Source of the DNA: a virus
Strand: one strand, 5' to 3'
DNA length: 20,219 bases
Virus record (IMG/VR): IMGVR_UViG_3300031658_002172
Span: 1 to 20,219 of that record
The number at the start of each line of letters is the position of its first letter. Position 1 is the first letter of the stretch. Position numbers and translations under genes: made by a program. The notes under the pieces are model-generated. The model saw only the letters and a list, made by a program, of their open reading frames with translations. It had not been told where the DNA came from and made no database searches. Positions 3,853 to 20,171 of this stretch are shown piece after piece.

Positions 3853-3882
3853 ATTATAACACGGTAACAGTGGTAATGTCAA
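3853..3882 (-). promoter_or_regulatory. sigma70-type promoter of gene 43
   Basis: On the minus strand, TTGACA (3882-3877), an 18-nt spacer and TATAAT (3858-3853): both hexamers match consensus. It lies in the gap right after the upstream Sm-like gene, about 25 nt before the gp43 start. The sequence after the -10 box (ATGTATTC) resembles the two CobS/CobT-region promoters. A direct repeat TTACC-ACTG-TTACC sits in the spacer. Confidence 0.85.
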
Positions 3883-8495: not shown

Positions 8496-8524
8496 ATTAT
8501 ATAATAAAATAGGGGTGTTGTCAA
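8496..8524 (-). promoter_or_regulatory. consensus sigma70 promoter of gene 45
   Basis: TTGACA (8524-8519), a 17-nt spacer and TATAAT (8501-8496) on the minus strand: a perfect match to the bacterial consensus. It lies about 33 nt upstream of the gp45 start and just after the terminator at 8554-8618. It probably drives 45-prx-44-mazG-62 early in infection. Confidence 0.92.
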
Positions 8525-17594: not shown

Positions 17595-17623
17595 ATTATA
17601 TCACGGATATACATGCCTGTCAA
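17595..17623 (-). promoter_or_regulatory. consensus sigma70 promoter of the dexA-47-46 operon
   Basis: TTGACA (17623-17618), 17 nt, TATAAT (17600-17595) on the minus strand: both boxes perfect, spacing optimal. It lies just downstream of the gp55 gene and about 28 nt before the exonuclease start. Confidence 0.92.
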
Positions 17624-17630
17624 GTACTTT

Positions 17631-18239
17631 CTAAATTTCCTTGAGTGCTTCGATCTTCTCTTTTGCCAGTGCTAATGCCTCTTTATCGTCAAGATATTTA
17701 GGGCGGCGCTTGGGGATCTTTGACTTCTCGCTGGCAAACTCTGCTTCGTGTTTGTTTGATTCATCGATTTTCTTCCGCATGTAATCAAGGAACTCTGTTG
17801 CGTGGATATCGTTTCCGTGATCTTGTGCGAGTATTTCAGAGAATTCCAGATTCTGGATATATCTCATCTTGGTACTCTGATACTTCTTCTCTTTCTGAAT
17901 CCTACGAATAAATGCATAGTAGGTAATCTGCGTAAAGTACGCAAACGGATTGGATGATTTGGCGGGGTCAAAGTTGTCCATATATGTTATGCAGTTTTCG
18001 ATGCCATCTAAAATCATCTCATCCCGAAATGTATAGTTGACAAAGTTTGCTTTGTATGCCAAATGATTTGCAATCTTAACAAAACATTCTCCAATGTAAT
18101 CAGGAACTCTGGGTTTTGGGAGCTCGTTTTCTTCTACTGACTTCCATTCAATTACGAGGTCACGATGAGCAGATATGTTTAATAAAAACTCTTTATTGTT
18201 TACATAGTGTCTATTGGTACTGGCTTCTGCTTTTTTCAC
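17631..18239 (-). CDS. 55: late-transcription sigma factor gp55
   Basis: Phage sigma factor of 202 aa (T4: 185) that redirects host RNA polymerase to late promoters of the TATAAATA type, with gp45 as activator. The sigma region 2-like core is clear: the YTFRDEMILDGIENCITYMDNFDP helix, SSNPFAYFTQITYYAFIRRIQKEKKYQ and the following helix. This part matches T4 gp55 and the sigma70 family. There is no region 4. The C-terminus is Lys-rich. The start is GTG 18239 with GGAG 7 nt upstream; an overlapping ATG is immediately followed by TGA and cannot be used. It sits after the Sm-like gene and before the exonuclease operon. A plus-strand promoter lies in the gap just before it. Confidence 0.95.
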   Translation of the reverse strand: MKKAEASTNRHYVNNKEFLLNISAHRDLVIEWKSVEENELPKPRVPDYIGECFVKIANHLAYKANFVNYTFRDEMILDGIENCITYMDNFDPAKSSNPFAYFTQITYYAFIRRIQKEKKYQSTKMRYIQNLEFSEILAQDHGNDIHATEFLDYMRKKIDESNKHEAEFASEKSKIPKRRPKYLDDKEALALAKEKIEALKEI

Positions 18240-18268: not shown

Positions 18269-18296
18269 TTGACATTCCTGTGGATGTGTGTATAAT
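18269..18296 (+). promoter_or_regulatory. consensus sigma70 promoter on the plus strand (antisense)
   Basis: On the plus strand, TTGACA (18269-18274), a 16-nt spacer and TATAAT (18291-18296). Both boxes are perfect, yet the direction is opposite to all genes in the window. Transcription would start near 18303 and run antisense into the Sm-like gene and uvsW. I see no plus-strand gene or terminator after it. Confidence 0.75.
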
Positions 18297-18322
18297 AGGG
18301 TGTGTCCCTTTAAGAAAGAATA

Positions 18323-18691
18323 CTAATTAATCTTATTATCTTTAACTGCTTTTAAGTATTCTAGTATATCATATGACTCATCTAATTGTTTGACATTCTC
18401 TGAGAAGAAAATCCGGCGAACAATTCTTCGATAATCTTCTAAGTATTTCTTACTGATAGGAGTCACATTTACAATCTGTTCACATCTAACAAAGAACTCA
18501 GTTTCATCTGAAAAAGGAATCCAGGGAACTAGAGAAAAGGATTCCATAATACCCGAATCAGTATCAGAATAATCTCTGTCTATTTTAAGGGGAGTAATCA
18601 GTCGCAATCGATTATCAGATTGTTCTTCCATACCGGCTACCAATTGCAGAGAATCAGTAAAAGTTATAACATTTACGGGTAAGTCATTCAT
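18323..18691 (-). CDS. Sm-like (LSm/Hfq-fold) phage protein, copy 1
   Basis: Small protein of 122 aa. The order of elements resembles the 129-aa protein at 3886-4275: strand VNVITFTDSLQLVAGM, a turn LRLITPLKI, then SLVPWIPFSDETEFFV, CEQIVNVTPIS and a Tyr-rich helix KYLEDYRRIV. The correspondence (ITPL versus MQNPA, VPWIPFSDE versus FSPFCPAAHDG, YLEDYRRIV versus IVEQYRNKY) suggests paralogues of the phage Sm-like family. The second half (90-122) is an added helical tail. RNA binding is an inference. It starts at ATG 18691 and overlaps the uvsW end by 8 nt, so it is coupled to the helicase gene. It lies under the antisense promoter at 18269. Confidence 0.72.
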   Translation of the reverse strand: MNDLPVNVITFTDSLQLVAGMEEQSDNRLRLITPLKIDRDYSDTDSGIMESFSLVPWIPFSDETEFFVRCEQIVNVTPISKKYLEDYRRIVRRIFFSENVKQLDESYDILEYLKAVKDNKIN

Positions 18692-20171
18692 CTATTTTCA
18701 TCTTCACTATTTTATAATTAAAAGATTCTTCATTGTAAATCTTGATCCTTTCCATCATATGATTTAGGGTAAAGTTCTTCTTTGATTTCCAAGATAAATC
18801 ATCTCCAAGATCAAACAAATTACAGACTGTCTTCTGCCCACCTCGTCTAAGCCCTCTACCAATTGACTGTAGATTTCTAATTCGACTCTTACTCGGTGAA
18901 GCAAATACAACATTATGCAAGTTTCTTATGTTTATTCCAGTAGAAAAAGTACCATATGAAGCAACTATTATAGCATCATTTTCTTCCTCTGTCAAGCGGC
19001 GAATCTCTTCTCGATGCTCTGTATCTGTACCGCCATGTACATAGAATACCTTGCGCCCCTTGACAACATGATTTTTTATCATATCATACAGTACCGCGCC
19101 ATGCTTCTCAACATACTGATATAGGACCAGGGTGTTGCCCTTCTGGGCAACTGTGAGATTTGTGATCAATTTATTTCGTAATGGATTTCTCACAATCCAA
19201 TCTATCTCTTCCTGATATGGCATCTTAGAGACTAGCTTCCTGTTCGCATCAGTATATTCCAAGAGCATACACACGATTTTTAATTCGGCTAGTTGTTTGT
19301 CATCCATCAGCTTCTTAGTGGACGTGACTTGATTGACTCTGCCAAACACCCCCTCAAGAACCAGGCGGTGAGTTTTGCTTCCATCTAATGTACCAGTCGT
19401 GCCTATGCGATAAGGTGCCGTAGTGCATTTGTCCATTATAGTAGTCAGCGACTTAGCTTTGAAGTTGTGCGCTTCATCACCGTAGATCACATCGAACTGC
19501 CCAAACCACACACCAGGGAACTTGTAGATCGACTGCCACGTGGAGATGATAACATCTTTGTCGTTGGTCTTTTCTTTACCACTGTAGATTCGATGACAGT
19601 GTTCATCCACGTCCCATTTATTGGCTGAAGAATAATCACCAAAGTCACCATACATTTGCTCAACTAGTGAAGTCGTGGGCACAATGAGTAATTGCTTTCT
19701 GCCATGAAGTTGATGATATCGAATCAACATATACAACATGAGAGATTTGCCACTAGCGGTGGGCGACAACAACAGGCTTCTGCCCTTCGATATTGCATGA
19801 TTAACTGCTTCTATCTGATACTCCCTGGCTTCGATTGGCTTGTTCTGACTGTGCAGATCCAGATGCTTTGCGAATTTCTGTACCGCCTCTATTGTACTGT
19901 CTTCACCGAGGTCTTCCATCTCCAGCTTTGTTCTGTACTCTAGCTGTTCAGCAAACTCCAAAAGATAGTCTAGGAGACCAATGTACAATTCCCTCGTGTA
20001 CATATTGAATAGTCTTGCCTTGCCATCCCAATATCTAGATTTATAGCTCGGCATAAATTTAGCACCAGGAACATCGAATGTGAAGTGGTCCACAATCTCC
20101 TTTGCGGTAGAAGGATCCGTGTCCACTATTAAGTGAACTTCATCCTTTTTGGTGATCGTAATCAAACTCAT
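18684..20171 (-). CDS. uvsW: UvsW helicase (SF2)
   Basis: RNA/DNA helicase of 495 aa (T4: about 500) that unwinds R-loops, branch-migrates recombination intermediates and, in T4, helps shift replication from origin-dependent to recombination-dependent mode. Visible: an N-terminal DNA-binding domain (HFTFDVPGAKFMPSYKSRYWDGKARLFN, 29-56), motif Q-like REYQIEAV, Walker A SPTASGKS (136-143), DEAH (232-235), TGT motif III (about 259-261), GRKVFYVHGGTDTEHREEI, ASYGTFSTGINI and motif VI QSIGRGLRRG. In T4 this gene is late. It starts at ATG 20171, abutting the previous stop codon. Two plus-strand promoter-like sequences lie against it, the better one at 18269. Confidence 0.97.
   Translation of the reverse strand: MSLITITKKDEVHLIVDTDPSTAKEIVDHFTFDVPGAKFMPSYKSRYWDGKARLFNMYTRELYIGLLDYLLEFAEQLEYRTKLEMEDLGEDSTIEAVQKFAKHLDLHSQNKPIEAREYQIEAVNHAISKGRSLLLSPTASGKSLMLYMLIRYHQLHGRKQLLIVPTTSLVEQMYGDFGDYSSANKWDVDEHCHRIYSGKEKTNDKDVIISTWQSIYKFPGVWFGQFDVIYGDEAHNFKAKSLTTIMDKCTTAPYRIGTTGTLDGSKTHRLVLEGVFGRVNQVTSTKKLMDDKQLAELKIVCMLLEYTDANRKLVSKMPYQEEIDWIVRNPLRNKLITNLTVAQKGNTLVLYQYVEKHGAVLYDMIKNHVVKGRKVFYVHGGTDTEHREEIRRLTEEENDAIIVASYGTFSTGINIRNLHNVVFASPSKSRIRNLQSIGRGLRRGGQKTVCNLFDLGDDLSWKSKKNFTLNHMMERIKIYNEESFNYKIVKMKIDE

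Follow-up and report, generated by a model that had tools for sequence, protein, structure and literature searches.

We found that a marine T4-like phage very probably has a genuine promoter, directed towards lsm and uvsW, in its gap between gp55 and lsm, to judge from its sequence and its retention among relatives. That a promoter at this junction is fixed in nearly all of the Kyanoviridae examined is well supported by sequence comparison. From it, we propose, with a probability of roughly 45%, that host sigma70 polymerase makes an early antisense transcript over lsm and uvsW, which would delay both genes until the late RNA polymerase takes over.

The gp55/lsm gap in the window

The window, by which we mean the whole stretch of 20,219 nucleotides analysed, is a fragment of a virus record (IMG/VR IMGVR_UViG_3300031658_002172), and its layout and best matches point to the Kyanoviridae, T4-like marine phages. 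The gap between gp55 and lsm measures 83 bp and houses the pair TTGACA-16-TATAAT at 18269-18296 on the + strand. As the original prediction had it, both boxes are perfect and lie on the strand without genes: every long gene-like ORF in the window is on the - strand, and the promoter opposes them all. Its strand is opposite to that of lsm and it reads into lsm, a cis-antisense geometry. A start near 18303 had been proposed, which agrees with the +1 that we predict from the distance to the -10 box, and the adjacent gene that had been taken for the late sigma factor was confirmed as gp55. The features of the region are listed below.

17631..18239, - strand: gp55, late sigma factor gene, first of the early block (phrog_234, 1.2e-55)
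18269..18274, + strand: -35 box TTGACA of the antisense promoter, kept among relatives
18275..18290, + strand: 16-nt spacer; its sequence drifts among relatives, with a spacing of 16-18
18291..18296, + strand: -10 box TATAAT, with 26 nt between its last base and the lsm stop codon
18297..18309, + strand: dyad AGGG-TGTGT-CCCT, centred on the predicted +1; proposed operator and counterpart of AACnnTGTnaGGGTT
18302..18304, + strand: predicted transcription start (+1), from the -10 distance
18303..18691, + strand: putative antisense transcript covering the whole of lsm, which may continue into uvsW
18323..18691, - strand: lsm, Sm-like (LSm-fold) protein gene by predicted fold; putative target
18684..20171, - strand: uvsW, DNA/RNA helicase gene; putative target

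The AlphaFold2 model of the lsm product has a pLDDT of 90 and matches 3by7 with a Z of 13.9 and an rmsd of 1.2 Å over 82 residues. The predicted structure confirms the neighbour as Sm-like, with an Sm beta-barrel of the Sm/LSm fold.

Dinucleotide shuffles of the window led us to expect 0.01 perfect TTGACA/TATAAT pairs. Since five were observed, including the one at 18269-18296, the phage is rich in consensus promoters. Three of the others, on the - strand at 3853-3882, 8496-8524 and 17595-17623, stand directly upstream of genes, and the pair at 18269 is the only perfect one in the window that opposes genes. The genes that the three precede are those of the polymerase, the clamp and the exonuclease, and the early block appears to be driven by near-consensus host promoters. 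The fifth perfect pair, at 18967-18995 on the - strand, falls within the uvsW reading frame, some 280 nt ahead of lsm; it is kept in the closest relatives and absent in L003, L005, L006 and L008. We set it aside, as it overlaps LTE..DAII, a motif conserved in the protein, and probably arose by coincidence from the coding sequence. On the + strand we found no terminator-like site from 18303 to 20000.

Conservation at the lsm/gp55 junction

Conservation of the boxes in relatives had been named beforehand as a check, and nearly every relative passed it. In the first nine relatives this junction has an antisense TTGAC[AT]-16/18-TATAAT pair, and the spacers are unrelated. A set of 67 non-redundant loci held 21 perfect antisense promoters, of which 19 fell within 100 bp before gp55. 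An enlarged set comprised 236 loci holding uvsW, lsm and gp55, 157 of them non-redundant and 152 with a gap of at least 50 bp; it was gathered by gp55 similarity, while a search with the lsm protein yielded one close contig only. An antisense match of at least 10/12 was present in 148/152 of these gaps, at least 11/12 in 122/152 and 12/12 in 24/152, whereas 192 other co-oriented gaps of the same contigs gave 5, 0 and 0, respectively; the loci share ancestry and were selected by gp55 similarity, so that these counts are not independent trials. Together with the shuffles, the contrast at the 11/12 level upholds the earlier view that such a pair is unlikely to have arisen by chance. The boxes have been retained 16-18 nt apart, a sigma70-type spacing, while the spacers diverged, and the only conserved parts are the -35 box, the -10 box, the dyad and about 17 nt of transcript.

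We found the junction promoter in 13 of the 14 Kyanoviridae isolates examined, namely S-BM3, S-RIM4, S-8S53, SynMITS9220M01, S-CAM22, ACG-2014e, S-RIM14, ACG-2014b, ACG-2014f, S-T4, S-RIM2, Syn9 and P-HM2. The P-HM2 copy has a weaker -10 box, and its dyad is shifted. The remaining isolate, MA10, has no such promoter. Bellamy is a further carrier. Melnitz-2 has no antisense promoter, and its lsm/gp55 gap contains instead a late-type TATAAATA box facing gp55 (L085 14826).

The distance from the -10 box to the lsm stop is nearly fixed, with a median of 27 nt (quartiles 26-31), and that to gp55 varies between 18 and 2950 nt. Where genes of 0.2-3 kb have been inserted before gp55 (L037, L046, L057, L071, L076), the promoter remains directly behind lsm, and lineages in which lsm abuts gp55 (L010, L011, L016, L036) have no gap and no promoter. 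Because of the near-fixed distance and the retention behind lsm after insertions, the promoter belongs with the 3' end of lsm and not with gp55.

This bears on whether the antisense start might be unselected noise from a pseudo-symmetric, bidirectional gp55 promoter. Bidirectional promoters are common in bacteria (PMC12825309, PMC10268837), and many relatives do have a sense sigma70 promoter for gp55 back to back with the antisense one, with overlapping -35 boxes in some, such as Syn9 and Bellamy. In the window, however, the best sense match before gp55 is 9/12 beside a perfect antisense site, which is not a bidirectional arrangement, and across loci perfect copies number 19 antisense and 4 sense. 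The antisense promoter also stays with lsm when gp55 is displaced, and it has a dyad of its own that the sense promoters lack. Since the promoter tracks lsm and is perfect even where the gp55 sense match is 9/12, we consider it unlikely that it is a mere by-product of a divergent gp55 promoter.

A dyad at the predicted start and its sister copies

Directly after the -10 box lies a dyad centred on the predicted +1, which reads AACnnTGTnaGGGTT in most cyanophages and AGGGTGTGTCCCT in the window. Other forms are GGACT-ATGT-AGTCC, GGTCT-ATGT-AGACC and CAGC-ATGT-GCTG, and S-T4 has CTGG/CCAG arms. The mean pairing score of the dyad is 3.38, compared with 1.89 for shuffled sequence. TGT stands at the dyad centre in 39/44 junction promoters versus 2/93 sense promoters of similar strength. 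The dyad is thus a junction-specific extra relative to ordinary sense promoters, and we propose that a phage regulator uses it as its operator.

The varying arms, with their compensating changes, and the pairing score would also suit a dyad that acts in the sense mRNA, as a hairpin or terminator closing the late operon, with the promoter-like boxes secondary to it. On the sense side, however, there is no run of T, and the -35 spacing is kept although the spacers are unconserved. Promoter and dyad also occur in the same orientation before other genes elsewhere, where no late mRNA has its 3' end. Because promoter and dyad move as one unit in this way, a late-mRNA hairpin has very little probability.

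These other copies were found by a genome search, which in ten genomes gave one or two gene-strand copies besides the junction copy, and in several others the junction copy only. In Syn9 the full unit of promoter and dyad occurs exactly twice, as the antisense copy at 123733 (-) and as a gene-strand copy at 52741 (+) within a cluster of tiny genes. The gene-strand copies precede phrog_718, phrog_707 and phrog_661 small early-region genes, or CP12/CpeT genes. In L249 from 7741 onward (Syn9 52741), L259, L263, L266 and L267 the sister promoter stands before a tiny-gene operon of phrog_718/phrog_707/phrog_661. L262 and L265 have a third dyad-promoter copy before the CP12 and/or CpeT auxiliary metabolic genes, at about 12-14 kb in several cyanophage genomes.

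The dyad type is uniform within a genome: CACTG in Syn9 and in ACG-2014b, CCATG in S-RIM2 and in S-RIM4, and CTCTGC in all three copies of S-8S53. In the ten genomes with several copies, the same dyad with matching half-sites recurs at several promoters of each genome, and within-genome concordance was 92/96 positions (permutation p 0.0008, uncorrected for relatedness). This concordance suggests one trans-acting, phage-specific regulator; recombination between the copies could be an alternative source of it. The phrog_661 protein is MazE/AbrB-like, below the Pfam cut-off, and is a candidate for the regulator and for an autoregulator of the sister operon. We detected no relative of it in Bellamy or in P-HM1/2, and for this reason it is not a general regulator.

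A wider reading is that the Kyanoviridae possess a regulon of two or three early promoters marked by one phage-specific +1 dyad, with the antisense promoter at the late/early border as its best-kept member. One regulator would then set the timing of the early takeover genes, of the carbon-metabolism genes CP12/CpeT and of the antisense control over UvsW and the Sm-like protein, and would replace the MotA/AsiA middle switch. We regard this reading as speculative and on the whole improbable.

The original prediction had also offered a regulatory small RNA as an option, and this is now weakened. Such an RNA would start at the antisense promoter, act in trans and be served by the Sm-like protein of the opposite strand. 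The predicted Sm/LSm fold of the neighbouring protein and the conserved first ~17 nt of the transcript are in keeping with it. Beyond ~17 nt, however, the body is conserved no more than the coding background, and what is conserved at the 5' end is part of the dyad, which other promoters have in common. No Rfam family matched the site or any of the 12 loci scanned, and the relatives share no conserved terminator position. A small RNA of this kind therefore seems very unlikely.

Timing of lsm and uvsW

In P-HM1, Bellamy and Syn9 all these genes lie on one strand, and the gap divides a late block (tail, capsid, gp3, uvsY, uvsW, lsm) from an early block (gp55, gp47, gp46, clamp, polymerase). In T4, gene 55 and uvsW are not neighbours. 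T4 uvsW has a late promoter, and its product unwinds the R-loops of the origins, whose promoters are shut off late (PMC3016281); the earlier description of T4 uvsW as a late gene whose helicase dissolves origin R-loops was thus correct. Cyanophages have neither T4 middle promoters nor motA/asiA (PMC5780444). The position at the border, the lateness of UvsW in T4 and this lack of a middle mode are the grounds on which we propose an early antisense hold on lsm and uvsW.

Host polymerase would use the antisense promoter early, and the transcript, or transcription itself, would oppose read-through into lsm and uvsW and their translation. A phage regulator would act at the dyad as an operator. Once gp55-directed polymerase takes over, the antisense transcript would fall away, and UvsW and the Sm-like protein would be released late. 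We infer the transcription, its timing, the repression and the regulator alike.

Some observations count against this proposal. Among the relatives, only 20/90 loci have an exact TATAAATA in the sense orientation within the uvsW/lsm block, and the promoter is absent from Melnitz-2, from MA10 and from the four gapless lineages. Apart from this, no conserved antisense ORF was found among relatives, where the longest had a median of 45 aa. Terminator-like hairpins in the uvsW/lsm block of 146 loci numbered 63 antisense and 11 sense, compared with 41 and 32 downstream of gp55, a strand bias that is weak and composition-prone and that we do not count as evidence.

The same transcript could instead mark a replication origin, where its R-loop would serve as primer for early DNA synthesis in the manner of T4 oriF and the UvsW encoded next to it would later remove the R-loop. 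The likeness to T4 oriF (uvsY) and oriG lies in a promoter-driven RNA near uvs genes and in the biology of UvsW, which unwinds R-loops at origins whose promoters fall silent late (PMC3016281). The T4 origins combine a MotA-type middle promoter with an A+T-rich unwinding element (PMC3016281), whereas the present site has a full -35 box and neither a family-wide A+T-rich element nor a skew switch, skew having little power as a test in T4-like phages. The first 80 nt downstream reach 75% A+T in the window, whose overall value is 59%, but in the relatives the corresponding value is 0.674 against 0.669 for the rest of lsm, so that an unwinding element is not seen there. Bellamy has no third-position skew switch at the junction and the cumulative GC skew of Syn9 has no turning point at 123.7 kb, subject to that same weakness of skew as a test. 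The sister copies before genes, moreover, have no reason to be origins. We therefore judge an origin at this site to be quite unlikely.

The proposed antisense delay of lsm and uvsW bears on a wider question, as the ordering of early and late genes is poorly understood in marine T4-like phages, which are without the T4 middle-mode regulators. A backward promoter that is retained in one place through nearly the whole family and shares its dyad with a few early-region promoters offers a testable handle on the timing switch and on the lateness of UvsW. The conserved unit predicts exact start sites in cultured phages with published transcriptomes. For Syn9 (DQ149023.2) the predicted antisense start lies near 123698 on the complement strand and that of the gene-strand sister near 52777, and for P-HM2 (NC_015284.1) the antisense start is expected near 120709 on the complement strand.

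The paQ promoter of lambda is a sigma70 antisense promoter that delays late expression through antisense RNA and transcriptional interference, and like the promoter described here it opposes a gene of the late-switch region. Lambda, however, is a temperate phage and its paQ is activated by CII, whereas the T4-like phages have consensus boxes at which we saw no activator site. In addition, paQ opposes the late activator itself, and the putative targets here are lsm and uvsW. For T4-like cyanophages, work on Syn9 by Doron in 2016 (ISME J) reportedly described a novel element for early genes. The unit of promoter and dyad may be that element, and if so the finding is partly already known.

In the part of the P-HM2 RNA-seq study available to us, antisense RNA is reported for the host only (PMC5082946). 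An antisense non-coding RNA of a T4-like marine cyanophage is known from S-PM2, where CfrI is expressed 3' of and antisense to psbA (Millard 2010, cited in PMC5931967). CfrI resembles the present case in being an antisense RNA of such a phage, expressed for CfrI and putative at lsm. CfrI lies at psbA, whereas the present site, for which Rfam gave no match, lies at lsm/uvsW beside gp55, occurs family-wide and bears a dyad.
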